From the NCBI RefSeq assembly GCF_014695575.1, contig NZ_JACJOO010000065.1:1-38797 (forward strand): a stretch of DNA of 38,797 bases, in the 5' to 3' direction. This document shows positions 1-32,194 of this stretch, piece after piece. Each line of letters opens with the position of its first letter. Position 1 is the stretch's first letter. This DNA is from Leptolyngbya sp. FACHB-8 (GTDB lineage: Bacteria > Cyanobacteriota > Cyanobacteriia > Elainellales > Elainellaceae). The position numbers were made by a program, and so were the translations under genes. Under the pieces are notes generated by a model. That model saw only the letters and a program-made list of their open reading frames with translations. It was not told where the DNA came from and made no database searches.

Positions 1-362
1 TGGCTCAAACGTGGGTGTTAAACGTTCAGCTTTTAGAATAGAAGCCTGAAAGCCAGTGATAACAGGGATGATAGAAAATATTAAGAAGCTCTCAAATGAC
101 CTTTAGAGGGCTGGGGTCGTAGACCCCTCAAAAATTCCTAGGGTAAGAGCGTTTTCGAGTGCCACGCAACGCGTGGCACTCGAAAACGCTCATTTTGGTA
201 TGCGCGAAGGGTACGCCAAAATGAGCACTTCAGCTTAGCTCGAACTCAAGCTTGAATGCTTTTTCTGCCCCTTTGATGTTGCCCGTTGCATATCTCATTA
301 TTCAGTAACACCTGATTTTGCATGGGTAGCGCATAGGCACGATCAAGGGGTTCAGCAGAACG
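1..362. other. Intergenic region at left window edge
   Basis: No gene can be supported here. A short open frame at the very start (about 12 codons ending near base 39) could be the tail of an upstream plus-strand gene, but it is too short to judge. A small GGGGTC/GACCCC hairpin lies near 113-127. The main content is a reversed copy of the bipartite double-hairpin repeat, annotated separately. Confidence 0.5.
137..257 (-). repeat. Bipartite double-hairpin repeat, copy 1 (reverse orientation)
   Basis: Two abutting hairpins are visible. The first has a 20-bp perfect stem (148-167 with 171-190) and loop AAC. The second pairs GCTCATTTTGG (188-198) with its complement at 216-226. Read on the minus strand, the order of parts and much of the sequence match the full copy at 17631-17752, including a recognisable terminal sequence (CTTAGCTCGAACTCAAGCT on plus). 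The other terminus is degenerate and no flanking direct repeat is clear. Confidence 0.8.
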
Positions 363-3217: not shown

Positions 3218-3240
3218 TCCCAATAACCTTTCAAGTTAAA

Positions 3241-3283
3241 AGCATTGTTGAGTGCCGCGCGTTGCACGGTACTCAACAATGCT
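3241..3283. repeat. Hairpin sharing the core of the bipartite repeat (partial copy)
   Basis: A stem of 13 perfect pairs (AGCATTGTTGAGT at 3241-3253 with 3271-3283) is extended by a GAGTGCCGCGC-type tip with mismatches. The tip is the same as hairpin B of the bipartite repeat at 17693-17733, but the outer stem is different. It lies just 3' of the LCP gene and could also act as its terminator. Confidence 0.6.
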
Positions 3284-3298
3284 CTTCATCCAATAAAA

Positions 3299-4726: not shown

Positions 4727-5276
4727 GGGTTTCCTCAACAGGAGTCCAACACCAATGCGGATCGTTGTTCTAGCTTTGGGAAGCTACCTCAGATGGGCAG
4801 ACCTGACTCCCCTGATGAGTCTATCAAAAGGCTCATGAATCAGAGAGAGCAGAAATGGTTTGAGGAAACGATCTCCTCCTCTCCCTTCGGCTCACAGGGC
4901 GAAAATTCCGGGAAATTTTCGATCCCTGGAGCTACGGTTGTGGCCGGAGCACTGACTCATGCTGCATGGTAGCAAGGTTTTCGGGTTTTGCGTCCGTATT
5001 TCTGTCAAGTACTGGGCGAATTTACTGGAAACTTATTGATACAGAGATTGATACAGAGAAGTATTGTAAGTCCACAGGCATAGAAACTCCTGTCACTTGC
5101 CTGATATCTATCCCAAAACCTACCGTTTAGAGAGGGGGTTCCACAAAGCTTGTCCCTCGAAAAAGCCCATTTTGGTGTGCGCGGAGCGAACGCCAAAATG
5201 GGCTTTTTCGAGATTGAGGTTTTTGTGGTCGATAAGCAACTGTCAAAAGAAACTGTATACGATGGGCAGCAACGAT
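4727..5276. other. Intergenic region between LCP gene and small membrane protein
   Basis: About 550 bp with no gene I can support. The short open frames lack start signals and protein-like composition. The right half holds one hairpin of the repeat family (5156-5212). The left half must contain the promoter of the LCP gene, but I could not pick a convincing -10/-35 pair. Confidence 0.5.
5141..5228. repeat. Hairpin A of the bipartite repeat (partial copy)
   Basis: A 20-bp perfect stem, CTCGAAAAAGCCCATTTTGG (5156-5175) with 5193-5212, encloses TGTGCGCGGAGCGAACG. The CATTTTGG(T/C)GTGCG core matches hairpin A at 17656-17694. Outer CCACAAA (5141-5147) and TTTGTGG (about 5222-5228) form further inverted ends. 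The second hairpin of the full element is missing. Confidence 0.7.
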
Positions 5277-5704: not shown

Positions 5705-6991
5705 TCAACTGCCAGACGGATTCATCATCACGCCCATAAACAGGATGGCGCCTGTCTCGTTGTCTTGAATCGCGTAGAGGAAGGGGCGATCGCACACCAT
5801 GCGGAAAGGCGGGTTCACGGGGAGCGAGGTGACGCCAATGCCAACGGAAGTGGCGGCAGCGGCTTCGGTGCCTTCTTCATCAACTTTAATATAGGTCTTG
5901 TGCTGCACATCACTGATGTAGAGCTGGGCGTCACCCATACCTGAGAAGTCAGCCGCATCGGGGTCAAAGGCGACGTCCATACCCAGAGCTGTGAGGGCGT
6001 CGTTGAGACCTGTCCCAAACTCACTCTCAAAGCGAGGGAGTTGGATCATGCCCGGTTGCTGGGCGAAGCGGTTCATCCAGGTCTGCCAGTTTTGAGGGGT
6101 GAGGGATTGTTGCAGAGCCTCCAGGCTGGAACCGTCGCGGGGCAGCAATACAACCATGCTGAGTCGACCATCGCCATAAGGAAGATGAATGCCCTGGAAT
6201 TGGTCTGTTTGAAGATAGCGGAACTCTCCGTTCTTGGTCATCATGGGTACGGTCATCTGGCTACCATCAGCCCGGTAGAAGGGTTGTCGTTGGGTCTGGC
6301 GGCGGCTGAAGGGGTCTGTCCAGGTGCCCTTGAAGTACACAGCGTTGACTAAGAACAGGACTTCCTCTGGGCGAATTTGCTCCACAATCTTGGGAATTTT
6401 GCCCTCGGTACTGTCGCTGACCCACTCGTTGATAGTGTCTGTGGCGTTGGGGTCGGCAAAATCCATCGATTGCACTTCGGCCCGGTAGTAGTCTTGATTA
6501 CGCTGCAAAAAGTCGGGGTTGAAGGTAAAGTCTTCTCGACCCCAGAGGGAATTAGCAATCCCAATTTTGACGTCTGGATCTGCGTTTTCCAGAATTGTGT
6601 CAAGGGCCGCATTGGCCTGATTCAGGTCTTCCAAGCTCATGCCCTGAAGCTCCAGGACTCTGGCCATGGCCTGCTGGGTTTCGCCACTGGCCCCGTTGTA
6701 GGTCATGGAGAGAGCGATCGCCACACTCGATGGCGAAATCATCACATTCTGCCCGTCCGCCTGCTGCATCACCTGGGAGAACAGCTTGAAGCCAAAGGCA
6801 TTTTGCGAAGCCACCAGGCGATCGTCTAGCGCTGGCAAATTCTCGGGTGCTACACGCTGGCTAACTTCTGGATTTTGAGAGGGCGATCGTCCCACCCCTT
6901 CCGCCCAACCTCCGGTCATGGCACATCCCAATAAGCCCACTAATACCAGGCTACTCAGCAAAACCTGTTTCGTGCGTTGCAATTGTCGCAT
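5705..6991 (-). CDS. Serpin-family protease inhibitor, predicted lipoprotein
   Basis: This is a 428-residue serpin. The start at 6991 is fixed by a strong GGAGG seven nt upstream; an earlier in-frame ATG at 7009 lies before that site. Residues 1-24 form a lipoprotein signal ending LVGLLGC, so the mature protein should be lipid-anchored outside the cytoplasm. The serpin core is complete, including MISPSSVAIALSMTYNGA, LFLVNAVYFKGTW and the C-terminal DRPFLYAIQDNETGAILFMG. The reactive-loop hinge EEGTEAAAAT has the small residues needed for loop insertion, so it should be inhibitory. Counting 17 from the first hinge Glu places P1-P1' at Thr-Ser (GIGVT/SLPV). That would favour an elastase- or subtilisin-like target, which is an inference. 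Serpins are sporadic in bacteria, which hints at horizontal history. Confidence 0.94.
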   Translation of the reverse strand: MRQLQRTKQVLLSSLVLVGLLGCAMTGGWAEGVGRSPSQNPEVSQRVAPENLPALDDRLVASQNAFGFKLFSQVMQQADGQNVMISPSSVAIALSMTYNGASGETQQAMARVLELQGMSLEDLNQANAALDTILENADPDVKIGIANSLWGREDFTFNPDFLQRNQDYYRAEVQSMDFADPNATDTINEWVSDSTEGKIPKIVEQIRPEEVLFLVNAVYFKGTWTDPFSRRQTQRQPFYRADGSQMTVPMMTKNGEFRYLQTDQFQGIHLPYGDGRLSMVVLLPRDGSSLEALQQSLTPQNWQTWMNRFAQQPGMIQLPRFESEFGTGLNDALTALGMDVAFDPDAADFSGMGDAQLYISDVQHKTYIKVDEEGTEAAAATSVGIGVTSLPVNPPFRMVCDRPFLYAIQDNETGAILFMGVMMNPSGS

Positions 6992-7133
6992 CTGCTCACC
7001 TCCAGCCATCTCTATGGGCGCTTATTTCTGTGATTTCATCCCAGGAAAGAAACTTTTTCCATAGCTCTACGATGCCATTCGGGACTAAAAAGTTTGAAGA
7101 GGTTGCGCTTTTTGTAACGCCTCAGGATTTACG

Positions 7134-11380: not shown

Positions 11381-11462
11381 CTCGTTTTTTCTGAGTGTTT
11401 TGTGAGATGAGTAGGCAAGATACTCACCTTACAAAACAGTTGATTTAATCCCAATTCTGGAT

Positions 11463-11575
11463 AGGCCTAAGTGCCATTTTGTCATACGCTTTGTACACAA
11501 CAAAATGGGCTTTTTTTGGGGGCGTGCAAGGCGCGCCCCTCAAAAAAAGTCCATTACCCAAACTCAGGTTGTTTA
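11463..11575 (+). repeat. Divergent full copy of the bipartite double-hairpin repeat
   Basis: Hairpin A pairs CCATTTTGT (11474-11482) with ACAAAATGG (11500-11508). Hairpin B pairs CTTTTTTTG and GGGGCG (11510-11524) with CGCCCC and CAAAAAAAG (about 11534-11549). The right flank CCCAAACTCAGGTT matches the terminus of the full copy at 17735-17752. Order and spacing of A and B are the same, but the stems have changed sequence while keeping pairing. It lies 3' of gmk (minus strand). Confidence 0.65.
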
Positions 11576-14334: not shown

Positions 14335-14347
14335 GAGAGTAGTGATG

Positions 14348-14450
14348 CCTAGTAGGCTGGGGCAGAAGTGTACAACCTATTTTTTGTGGTGGGGTGCGAA
14401 GCACCCCACCACAAAAAATAGGCAACGAACTTAGGCCGTAGCCTACTAGG
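14348..14450. repeat. Nested palindrome 3' of rqcH
   Basis: The inner hairpin is perfect over 22 bp (14376-14397 with 14401-14422, loop GAA), with CCTATTTTTTGTGGTGGGG at its base. The outer arms CCTAGTAGGCT (14348-14358) and AGCCTACTAGG (14440-14450) pair perfectly over 11 bp. The architecture matches the element at 2428-2533 (outer arms, spacer, long core, GAA loop) although the sequence differs. It probably also terminates rqcH. Confidence 0.8.
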
Positions 14451-14532
14451 GATATTTTGGGCAATCGCTACCCAAACAACTCAGACTACCCAGTTCAACA
14501 CAGGCCCCCCGTTCCTCTGCTTCCCTGCCCTT

Positions 14533-16488: not shown

Positions 16489-17535
16489 ATGGCGACCGTT
16501 TTGGCAATTGAAACCAGTTGTGATGAAACTGCTGTGGCTGTGGTGCGCAATCGCTGCATCCTCAGCAATGTGGTTGCCTCTCAAATCGCGGTGCATCAGC
16601 CCTATGGCGGTGTTGTGCCGGAGGTGGCATCACGGCAACATTTGGAGACGGTGAATGGGGCGATCGCCCAGGCTTTAGAGGAATTTGGTGAAGGGTGGGA
16701 TGCCATTGATGGGATTGCCGCTACCTGTGCTCCGGGATTGGTAGGGGCATTGATGGTGGGTTTAACTGCCGCGAAAACCCTGGCTCTCTTGCACGAGAAG
16801 CCGTTTCTTGGAGTTCATCATTTAGAAGGTCATATCTATGCCAGTTACCTGGCCGCTCCAGACCTGCAACCGCCATTTCTCTGCCTTCTGGTGTCGGGTG
16901 GCCACACCAGTCTGATCTATGTCAAAGATTGCGGCCATTACGAAACCTTAGGAGAAACCCGCGACGATGCAGCGGGGGAGGCCTTCGACAAGGTGGCCCG
17001 CTTGCTGGATTTGGGTTATCCCGGTGGCCCTGTGATCGATCGCTTGGCCCAGGAGGGTAATGCCCAGGCATTTCCCTTGCCCGAGGGGCAAATTTCCCTG
17101 CCAGGTGGTGGATTTCATCCCTATGACTCCAGCTTCAGCGGCCTGAAGACAGCGGTGCTGCGCTTGACTCAAACGTTGCAGCAACGTCCCGAACCAATTC
17201 CCGTTGCAGACCTGGCTGCCAGTTTTCAAGCAACAGTGGCACGGGCGTTGACGAAGCGGGCGATCGCCTGTGCTCTCGACTATGGTCTCACCACCATTGT
17301 GGTCGGGGGTGGCGTCGCCGCTAACCGTGGGCTGCGAGAACATCTAACGGCTGCTGCTGAGGCTCGCAATTTGCGGGCATTTTTCCCACCGCTCAAGTTT
17401 TGTACGGACAACGCGGCCATGATTGCCTGCGCCGCTGCTGATCACCTGAACCGGGGGCACCGGTCAACACTAGCCCTGGGAGCACAATCCCGGATGCCCT
17501 TGTCGAAAGTTATGGAGTTGTATAGCCTGACGTAA
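16489..17535 (+). CDS. tsaD: tRNA N6-threonylcarbamoyladenosine transferase (TsaD)
   Basis: This 348-residue cytosolic enzyme transfers threonylcarbamoyl from its adenylate to A37 of ANN-decoding tRNAs, working with TsaB/TsaE. The N terminus [16 protein letters not shown] is the ASKHA phosphate-binding signature. The metal-binding motif HHLEGHIYA places His111 and His115. The strings [42 protein letters not shown] and [13 protein letters not shown] complete the family pattern. Length is normal. It is divergent from psaF, an arrangement I recall from other cyanobacteria, and followed by a 20-bp terminator hairpin. Confidence 0.98.
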
Positions 17536-17546
17536 TTCAGTTAACA

Positions 17547-17597
17547 CAGGTGATGCTTGAAAAGCCCCGTATCATGTGGCTTTTCAAGCATCACCTG
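17547..17597 (+). terminator. tsaD terminator hairpin
   Basis: CAGGTGATGCTTGAAAAGCC (17547-17566) pairs perfectly over 20 bp with 17578-17597; loop 11 nt. It starts 12 bp after the tsaD stop codon. Confidence 0.75.
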
Positions 17598-17624: not shown

Positions 17625-17758
17625 TATCTAACCTCAGCTCGGGATAAGCTGAAGTGCTCATTTTGGCGTGCGTTTTGCGCACGCCAAAATGAGCGTTTTC
17701 GAGTGCCGCGCAACGCGCGGCACTCGAAAACGCCCTTAACCCGAACTCAGGTTATCTA
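17625..17758 (+). repeat. Bipartite double-hairpin repeat, full copy with flanking direct repeats
   Basis: This is the most complete copy. The terminal inverted repeats are ACCTCAGCTCGGGATAAG (17631-17648) and CTTAACCCGAACTCAGGT (17735-17752). Between them are hairpin A (17 bp perfect, GCTCATTTTGGCGTGCG at 17656-17672 with 17678-17694) and hairpin B (19 bp perfect, GCGTTTTCGAGTGCCGCGC at 17693-17711 with 17715-17733, loop AAC). The element is flanked by identical TATCTA hexamers (17625-17630 and 17753-17758). This suggests insertion with target duplication, like a MITE. There is no coding capacity. Confidence 0.88.
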
Positions 17759-17830: not shown

Positions 17831-18820
17831 CTATGCAGAGGTTGGAAGACTATCGCTATGCTTCTGCAAAATGTCCAGGATGATCTGGCTGACGTAATCA
17901 GTCTGCTCCAACATAGCCAGGTGACCGCAATCCGGAATCTCGATCACATTGTTTGCGTTGTTGTGAAAGAGTGAGTGGAAACTGGCGAGATGCTGCACAT
18001 ATTGAGGCTCCATCACGGTATCCTGCTGCCCTGTGAGGAAATACACGGGTTGCTTGAGGCGGGAAACCACTTGAGGTAAGCGATGGACTTCTTCCTCAGT
18101 GGTGGAATCAAGCAGGGCACCTAAGGCAGCTTCAGGGTCAGCTGCTGTCCAGTCTACAAGTCGCCGTCGCCCCCAGGAGCGGGGAAGCGGTCGGGCCACA
18201 TTCATCCAGGCCATCATGCGGTCAAGCAGCGGCAAGTAGCAAAGCCAGCGAGGGCGCAGTCTAACCAATTGCTCCCCAGCGGCCCGGAATCGCTCAAATT
18301 CCTCTTTGAGATAAATGCCACCGCCAGAGTTGACGCAGATGACCCCTTTGACGCGATCGCCCATCTGATCCGCTGCCCAAAGCGAAATGCTGCCCCCCAG
18401 GGAATGCCCTACAAGCCATACATTGGAAAGATTCAGCTTCTCTAACAGAATTTCGAGATCATGGGCATAGTCAGCAGGGGTATAGCGCCCTGAGGAAATT
18501 TCTGTATTGAGTGTTTCGGTAGAAACGCCTTGCTCAAGGGGGAGCGTCGCTGGAGATGAGGGACGCGAGGGAGAGGCGGCTACCTGGGCTGCTGGAGAGA
18601 GCCGGGCAACGCGAACCTGCCGAGAAGTCTGGGAATCTCCGAAGCCCCGTAGGTCGTAAGTGAGGCATTGGTAATAGGGGGAAAGCTGTTGGATTAACGG
18701 TTGCCAGTAGGCGCGGCTCAGAAGCCAACCGTGAACGAACACCAAAACCGGAGGCGTTTTGGCAGGGGACGTCAACTCGTATGCGTGGGGAACCCCTAGA
18801 ACTTCGACAGTGCTTACCAT
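17831..18820 (-). CDS. Alpha/beta hydrolase fold protein
   Basis: This is a 329-residue soluble protein. The oxyanion-hole region VFVHGWLLSRAYW and the strand TYDLRGFGDSQTS are typical of the fold. The nucleophile elbow is GHSLGGS (catalytic Ser). A late acid candidate lies in LTGQQDTVMEPQYV, and the catalytic His is in PDCGHLAMLEQ. About 45 residues of Pro/Ser/Ala-rich sequence (SPAAQVAASPSRPSSPA) are inserted between the DLRGFGDS strand and the nucleophile. This is an unusual low-complexity loop likely to be lineage-specific. The substrate cannot be deduced. It is monocistronic. Confidence 0.9.
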   Translation of the reverse strand: MVSTVEVLGVPHAYELTSPAKTPPVLVFVHGWLLSRAYWQPLIQQLSPYYQCLTYDLRGFGDSQTSRQVRVARLSPAAQVAASPSRPSSPATLPLEQGVSTETLNTEISSGRYTPADYAHDLEILLEKLNLSNVWLVGHSLGGSISLWAADQMGDRVKGVICVNSGGGIYLKEEFERFRAAGEQLVRLRPRWLCYLPLLDRMMAWMNVARPLPRSWGRRRLVDWTAADPEAALGALLDSTTEEEVHRLPQVVSRLKQPVYFLTGQQDTVMEPQYVQHLASFHSLFHNNANNVIEIPDCGHLAMLEQTDYVSQIILDILQKHSDSLPTSA

Positions 18821-32107: not shown

Positions 32108-32194
32108 GTAATCGGGTTCCGGGTTAAGGGCGTTTTCGAGTGCCGTACGTTGCGCGGCACTCGAAAACGCCCTTAACCGAACTCGGGTTTTGTA
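32104..32194. repeat. Bipartite repeat, hairpin B-only copy with flanking direct repeats
   Basis: A 24-bp perfect stem (32122-32145 with 32155-32178) contains GGGCGTTTTCGAGTGCCG, as in hairpin B at 17693-17733. Flanking arms ATCGGGTTCCGGGTTAAGG and CCTTAACCGAACTCGGG are the terminal repeats of the family. Hairpin A is absent. Identical TTTTGTA heptamers (32104-32110 and 32188-32194) border the copy, a possible target duplication. The left heptamer overlaps a terminator T-run, so chance is possible. Confidence 0.78.

Follow-up and report, generated by a model that had tools for sequence, protein, structure and literature searches.

A family of IS982-type MITEs with a conserved double-hairpin body in Leptolyngbya sp. 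FACHB-8 and two related genera

The locus at positions 17625-17758 of the window (by which is meant the whole stretch of DNA analysed here, 38,797 nucleotides in length) is one member of a family of IS982-type MITEs in which a two-hairpin body is conserved. Its 134 bases consist of a TATCTA hexamer, an element of 122 bases and a second TATCTA. The family is short, non-coding and multi-copy, and it has terminal inverted repeats, target duplications and unoccupied sites--that is, the features by which prokaryotic MITEs are recognised. Very probably an IS982 transposase is what moves it, and its hairpins are kept near-perfect mainly by template switching. At the level of sequence, the account rests on the ends, the duplications, the empty sites, signs of recent spread, the sharing of ends with IS982 elements, paired changes within the stems and the occurrence of hairpin loops in both orientations.

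The preliminary description of this locus, which was made from the letters of the window alone, had given its location, its TATCTA flanks and two perfect hairpins of 17 bp and 19 bp, all of which were borne out (Table 1). The 18-bp terminal inverted repeats that it had likewise proposed are present, but in the window copy they match at 15 of the 18 positions and so are not perfect; in the consensus of each subfamily 16 of the 18 positions are complementary. The arms of hairpin A occupy 17656-17672 and 17678-17694 and those of hairpin B 17693-17711 and 17715-17733, two bases being common to the arms of both hairpins in this copy. Its folding z-scores are -13.55 (RNA parameters) and -12.40 (DNA parameters), and none of 200 shuffles is as stable as the real sequence under either set of parameters. 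The 122-bp body, which is too short for a transposase gene, carries no gene; it sits between two convergent genes, one of the TsaD family (16489-17535, + strand) and the other encoding an alpha/beta hydrolase (17831-18820, - strand). (A separate perfect 20-bp hairpin, without a T tract, occurs directly after the TsaD-family gene, at window positions 17547-17597.)

Table 1. The element, its parts and its relatives, in window coordinates
Feature	Positions	Strand	Basis
Left target duplication, TATCTA	17625..17630	.	direct reading; 6-8-bp T...A duplication class as in the sampled genome
122-bp element (MITE) of subfamily 1, shown with A before B	17631..17752	+	sequence and genome copies
Left terminal repeat ACCTCAGCTCGGGATAAG ('GGGATAAG' end; upstream end of IS982-type elements)	17631..17648	+	15/18 complementary to right end; like IS982-type ends
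Hairpin A, perfect 17-bp stem in window copy; CGTGCGC (inner stem) conserved across genera	17656..17694	.	arms, alignment and folding
Hairpin B, perfect 19-bp stem; CCGCGC tip conserved across genera	17693..17733	.	arms, alignment and folding
Right terminal repeat, ACCTGAGTTCGGGTTAAG reading inward ('GGGTTAAG' end; downstream end of IS982-type elements)	17735..17752	-	direct reading and IS982 comparison
Right target duplication, TATCTA	17753..17758	.	direct reading
Decayed full-length 122-bp copy, without exact duplication	11448..11569	+	scan for pairs of terminal inverted repeats
78-bp derivative, hairpin B only, exact 6-bp duplication TTTGTA on both sides	32111..32188	+	sequence
Copy retaining A and B, with ends decayed; on the + strand B precedes A	about 137..257	-	sequence; B arms
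B-like hairpin remnant, no recognised ends	3238..3286	.	sequence and arms
A-like hairpin, arms extended by B-like sequence; no recognised ends	5156..5212	.	sequence and arms

Five relatives inside the window had been listed earlier, together with the statement that copies can carry only hairpin A, only hairpin B or both. All five are real, but they are not of one kind: they comprise a decayed full-length copy, a B-only derivative, a decayed double-hairpin copy and two single-hairpin remnants without ends. The statement about hairpin content holds as well, though the shorter forms are diverse and mostly resemble deletion derivatives.

Within the window's own draft genome (termed here G000; 6.93 Mb), terminal-repeat matches with at most two mismatches number 549, versus 2 for a reversed-pattern control. 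A sample of 2,036,797 bp of this genome (2.04 Mb, the window included) contains 124 end pairs, of which 85 span 100-140 bp, 18 are shorter and 21 are longer. One of the 85 stretches of 100-140 bp, C83:88831, is a chance pair and was left out, leaving 84 elements, 74 of which are exactly 122 bp long. Extrapolation from these 84 gives about 285 elements genome-wide, an estimate that is rough because the sampled contigs are mostly large ones. At least one of the 18 pairs shorter than 100 bp is likely due to chance, and 5 have exact 6-8-bp duplications; the 21 longer pairs are mostly weak-ended, and an exact duplication (7 bp) occurs only at C61:13317-13542 (226 bp). Two unusual forms were also seen: a 46-bp element at C55:30357-30402, from which both hairpins are absent and which is flanked by an exact 8-bp duplication, TAAAACTA; and an apparent recombinant of 136 bp at C46:88527-88662, in which the left end and hairpin A of subfamily 2 are joined to hairpin B and the right end of subfamily 1.

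The view that the element is non-autonomous and mobile, which the preliminary description had made to depend in part on direct repeats being seen around other copies, is well supported by its terminal repeats, its duplications, paralogous targets that are still empty, the occurrence of identical copies at several sites and the lack of double-hairpin copies in the single genome of the same genus that was searched. Of the 85 stretches of 100-140 bp bounded by terminal inverted repeats, 63 have exact target duplications of 5-10 bp on their flanks; the first base of these duplications is T in 59 and the last is A in 61, the commonest duplication being TACTTA (7 occurrences). For a 1.24-Mb subset, exact duplications of at least 5 bp were found at 45 of 58 stretches, versus about 0.1 of 58 expected from randomly shifted ends. 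(A chance origin of the element is ruled out by the end counts relative to the control, the excess of duplications and the folding z-scores.) Unoccupied sites were sought by joining the two flanks of each of these 63 stretches, with one duplication removed, and by searching for paralogous sites in the same genome. An unoccupied target was found for nine of the 63 queries, and in seven of the nine it is gap-free within 5 bases of the junction; the gapped cases are C46:76027 (gaps inside the target) and C73:32280 (gaps beside the target). The clearest empty site corresponds to C7:167962 and lies at C42:72685-72783 (92.9% identity), with a single intact TACTTA; there are 35 such places. Another, for C64:159062, lies at C7:106130-106228 (94.9% identity, with 5 of 6 target bases identical), and those for C73:44416 and C73:109746 show 77-78% identity with targets identical at 7/7 and 8/8 bases. 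Some unoccupied targets fall within other palindromic repeats, the host repeat at C42:72685-72783 being an example.

Six sequence-identical copies occupy six sites, each with its own duplication. Two copies of a single host palindrome carry, at an identical position, elements of different subfamilies (C43:174853-174974 and C46:76027-76148), both with a TACAAA duplication, and the copy at C51:1884 is nested inside an apparent older member of the family. The only other genome of the same genus that was searched (G001) contains one lone end, and neither a DNA search nor an end-pattern search found double-hairpin copies in it; synteny with G001 was found when orthologous empty sites were sought there, but the intergenic stretches do not align base by base.

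Like members of the IS982 family (compared with PMC7335449), the MITE has ends that begin with AC and duplications that differ in length. More specifically, its ends are those of elements that carry an IS982 transposase in related genomes, asymmetry included--contrary to the earlier view that no named family matches. Both ends are shared with such elements in G001, G016, G020, G026 and G035, and one end was found at an IS982 gene in G033. In G001 a gene for a 292-amino-acid IS982 transposase (261 bits, relative to a cut-off of 130) lies inside an element of 967 bp, whose two ends read ACGTGAGTACGGGATAAG and ACGTCAGTACGGGTTAAG and which is flanked by an exact duplication, TAGCTA; in G016, G020, G026 and G035 IS982 genes or their remnants lie within elements of 931-988 bp with ends of the same kind. 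Eight IS982 copies were read at both ends (those in G001, G020, G026 and G035 and, in G016, those on C90, C7, C35 and C1). Seven of the eight have GGGATAAG as the upstream and GGGTTAAG as the downstream end (with GGGTTAGG as the downstream end of G016:C7), and seven have GGGTTA at the corresponding place downstream of the gene; the exception among the eight is the G020 copy, which has TGGATAAG at both ends. The MITE has the same asymmetry, with GGGATAAG on the A side and GGGTTAAG on the B side. Judged by eye, an exact duplication flanks one of the eight copies, namely that of G001. Several IS982 loci lack these ends at a threshold of at least 14 of 18 matches: L231 (G030), L233 (G012), L093 and L178 (G016), and L080 and L083 (G037). 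Some of these are fragments or weak matches, and L083 has ends of its own beginning ACCTGAGTTCGACA. (An IS982 remnant at G016:C84 was considered as a parent of the MITE on account of a longer shared stretch, but was rejected because the matching end belongs to an adjacent MITE copy.)

An IS982-type transposase thus probably mobilizes the MITE. A transposase with matching terminal repeats, for which the preliminary description had suggested looking, was found in related genomes but not, above the cut-off, in the element's own draft genome: the G000 draft yields a single 23.7-bit match to the IS982 transposase (cut-off 130) and no match to the G001 protein. Nor, among the pairs of terminal inverted repeats in 2.04 Mb, does G000 contain an autonomous 1-kb element with these ends; its 0.8-2.5-kb pairs have weak ends (at most 15/18) and lack exact duplications of at least 3 bp. 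Since G000 has no IS982 gene above the cut-off, the copies look orphaned there. The draft of G013, which also carries the MITE, likewise gives a match below the cut-off (26.5 bits) and none to the G001 protein; IS982 transposase genes are present in G016, mostly broken. The mover is thus missing from two of the three MITE-rich genomes, possibly through loss, through a gap in the drafts or because another enzyme is at work. In our view, a parental transposase in the same genome is often seen with MITEs but is not a defining feature of them.

The distribution of the family was explored in 388 genomes of the class by means of a pattern requiring both ends, without mismatches, at a distance of 70-100 bp (control, 0 matches). 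Matches occur in seven genomes: 92 in G000, 60 in G016, 7 in G013 and one each in G173, G235, G258 and G307. The four singletons have different interiors (80 bases of each were viewed), that of G173 having one hairpin. When 60 relatives were searched at the DNA level, six had matches, G000 among them. G016 and G013 come from the same family as G000 but from different genera, and their elements share the 122-bp layout with different stems. Twelve copies from each were analysed, these being high-ranking search matches or exact-end matches rather than a random draw; 11 of 12 are exactly 122 bp long in each genome, and exact 6-9-bp duplications flank 10 of 12 in G016 and 5 of 12 in G013. Short elements with similar ends and with one hairpin or none also occur in other cyanobacteria (L157, at G173:C2:21459-21571, and L176, at G037:C289), which suggests that several MITE bodies use IS982-type ends.

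That the copies keep pairing while changing stem sequence had been claimed at the outset, with compensatory changes named as the evidence on which the structural claim would stand or fall. Such changes are present, and the claim withstands shuffle, slid-partner and terminal-repeat controls. Among the 48 copies of subfamily 1 (1,920 stem cells) there are 69 one-sided and 24 two-sided changes, and all 24 of the latter still pair; about 1.9 two-sided changes, 0.6 of them pairing, are expected from the one-site rate. (The counted stems overlap by up to 8 bases, so that some one-sided changes are counted twice; moreover, cells are copies rather than events, the 24 two-sided cells representing 11 distinct changes, 5 of which occur in a single copy.) The 18 copies of subfamily 2 (738 cells) show 12 one-sided changes and one two-sided change, which pairs. 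The terminal repeats, by comparison, show 37 one-sided and no two-sided changes in 768 cells for subfamily 1 (0.45 expected) and 18 one-sided and no two-sided changes in 288 cells for subfamily 2. The preponderance of one-sided (69) over paired (24) cells in subfamily 1 implies that correction of one arm by the other is incomplete.

An alignment of 84 distinct elements from the three genera (66 of the 74 122-bp copies of G000, 7 from G016 and 11 from G013, from which exact duplicates were removed, as were two copies of 124 bp and any of another length) extends this pattern: pairing is intact in 98.1% of 2,939 stem cells, and both sides have changed in 22 of the 35 pairs. None of 500 shuffles, which ignore relatedness, reaches any of five pairing measures; in a slid-partner control, which keeps relatedness, pairing is at most 55% and the number of two-sided cells falls from 302 to at most 40. 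For the terminal repeats in the same alignment, covariation is not above that of the shuffles. Stem letters are conserved at the tips and replaced toward the bases: two-sided cells number 153 in the outer nine pairs of hairpin A versus 5 in the inner seven, and 135 in the outer thirteen pairs of hairpin B versus 9 in the inner six.

Either orientation of a loop is found. Of the 48 subfamily 1 copies, 22 have AAA and 20 have TTT as the loop of hairpin A, and for hairpin B 33 have AAC and 10 have GTT. Of the 18 subfamily 2 copies, 14 have GAC and 2 have GTC in hairpin A, and 12 have GAA and 6 have TTC in hairpin B; all remaining loops are other triplets. When the loops are masked, three groups of otherwise identical copies remain, within which there are seven pairwise loop differences (not independent of one another), six of them exact reverse complements.

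These patterns are consistent with the following course of events. A transposase would recognise the 18-bp ends and excise or copy the element, which would insert at T...A-type sites and so produce mostly 6-8-bp duplications. Each hairpin would then be kept near-perfect mainly by polymerase template switching during replication: by copying the opposite arm, the nascent strand would either erase an arm mutation or transfer it to the partner arm (i.e., create a paired change), and a template switch across the hairpin tip would invert the 3-base loop. Template switching explains why paired changes arise without a G-U step, why the far-apart ends have none, why neither strand is favoured and why loops are flipped. 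Polymerase template switching between the arms of inverted repeats, with homogenisation or correction of the arms and inversion of the spacer, has been described in yeast genes (PMC8604942), and template switching has been described in the history of rRNA hairpins, bacterial loop inversion included (PMC8794818). We infer that template switching caused the hairpin pattern. Neutral template switching alone does not explain the constant 122-bp length and the conserved tips across three genera; these suggest some selection on the hairpins, either in transposition or for a host protein.

From a different perspective, the hairpins might be a functional RNA signal--a two-way transcription terminator or a stabiliser of mRNA 3' ends--whose pairing is kept by selection on the RNA. 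The fold is indeed very stable, and placement appears to favour this reading. The flanking genes of the 84 elements are convergent for 31, tandem for 37 and divergent for 15, with one element at an edge, whereas intergenic bases are 15.7% convergent, 55.0% tandem and 29.3% divergent; the excess of convergent settings (31 of 83 elements flanked by two genes) is significant relative both to bases (binomial 1.4e-6) and to gaps, 20.4% of which are convergent (2.8e-4). The median distance is 109 bp to gene 3' ends versus 258 bp to gene starts, and none of the 84 elements lies wholly within a predicted gene (using a simple gene finder with a coding fraction of 0.78, which would call an interrupted gene as two separate ones, so that some copies may nonetheless disrupt genes). 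Three other palindromic families in the same genome, however, have a similar convergent share (11/37, 8/19 and 10/33 of the copies flanked by two genes), so that tolerance of insertions suffices and the excess need not mean function; a terminator role deduced from convergent placement is weakened accordingly. (Three further palindromic families, with 1-4 copies each, are uninformative on this point. The high-copy palindromic families have 19, 35 and 39 copies in 2.04 Mb, and examples occur in the window at 2424-2532 and 14345-14453.) Nor does the element look like a terminator otherwise: a T tract is absent after the stems, and a terminator scan does not call it. In the window there are no matches to Rfam 15 at gathering scores. 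One-sided mismatches are about as often G-T as A-C (29 versus 27 for subfamily 1 and 4 versus 5 for subfamily 2), so that neither strand is favoured, unlike what an RNA would predict, and a G-U intermediate is impossible for some of the two-sided changes, for instance U-A to A-U and G-C to C-G. Template switching in DNA palindromes accounts for this pattern, including the paired changes and loop inversions, better than does RNA function, which we consider very unlikely; the dispersed structured RNA that the preliminary description had offered as an alternative thus goes unsupported.

It is also conceivable--and compatible with the IS982 and template-switching account--that the hairpins are part of the transposition machinery, where cruciforms or single-strand folds would join the ends of a very short substrate and be kept by selection among copies. 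The constancy of length suggests as much (exactly 122 bp for 74 of 85 stretches in G000 and for 11 of 12 copies in both G016 and G013, the latter 24 not being random), as do the conservation of stem-tip letters while stem bases turn over and the smaller number of shorter forms (18 pairs below 100 bp). The 46-bp element at C55:30357-30402, on the other hand, has its exact 8-bp duplication without either hairpin (although a deletion after insertion would fit too), and hairpins comparable to these were not seen, by eye, in full-length IS982 ends. We regard such a role as possible, if on balance doubtful. A more specific version, in which sequence-specific tips on paired stems of any sequence are extruded from DNA and bring the ends of the 122-bp element together for an IS982-type transposase, while selection among copies preserves length, pairing and tips over inter-genus time and template switching rewrites the stem bases, seems rather unlikely. 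The element is, finally, short, palindromic, intergenic and high-copy, as is a REP/BIME-type repeat, such repeats being associated with a tyrosine (Y1) transposase (RAYT); yet target duplications are not expected from Y1 transposition, and the element has exact 6-8-bp duplications and 18-bp terminal inverted repeats like those of a DDE-type insertion sequence, which makes movement by a REP-associated Y1 enzyme scarcely credible.

Against this background, the element can be compared with known systems. It resembles the IS982 family in its AC ends, the T at position 9, variable duplications and ends of about 18 bp (PMC7335449); ISNsp1 of Nostoc, a cyanobacterial member, is 1028 bp long, with ends of 16/17 and a duplication of 6 (PMC7335449). 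It differs in being a MITE without a transposase gene, of 122 bp rather than about 1 kb, and in its two-hairpin body, which was not seen in the IS982 ends examined here. An IS982-derived MITE is already known, namely MITECca01 (PMC9769881), which is likewise short, non-autonomous, mostly intergenic and of high copy number (169 copies) with IS982 ends; it is, however, about 240 bp long, and the available text of PMC9769881 describes no two-hairpin body with covarying stems for it. The MITEs of Anabaena sp. 90, of which 147 copies, whole or partial, are reported (PMC3542288), are also cyanobacterial and mostly intergenic, and by description the group 1 MITE, with three sets of inverted repeats, has a layout comparable to the double hairpin (PMC3542288). 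Unlike those of the MITE in the window, the ends of the Anabaena sp. 90 MITEs are described as lacking similarity to that genome's insertion sequences (type II; PMC3542288). Thus both IS982-derived MITEs and cyanobacterial MITEs with multiple inverted repeats are known, whereas a description of this double-hairpin family was not found in the open-licence literature by way of its end sequences or related MITEs, and neither was any double hairpin whose layout stays fixed in three genera as its stems turn over and its loops flip.

More generally, hundreds of near-identical palindromes at independent sites in one genome constitute a natural experiment, from which one could measure how fast template switching corrects arms and inverts loops in a bacterium. 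The family also illustrates that a hairpin may show compensatory changes and strong covariation without these alone being evidence of a functional RNA, and the comparison of three genera makes it testable whether hairpins inside a MITE aid its movement. Two minor observations concern the host and the remainder of the window: a CAAD domain in the host's valyl-tRNA synthetase marks it as a cyanobacterium, and the window contains a serpin gene at 5705-7009 (E = 3.6e-121).
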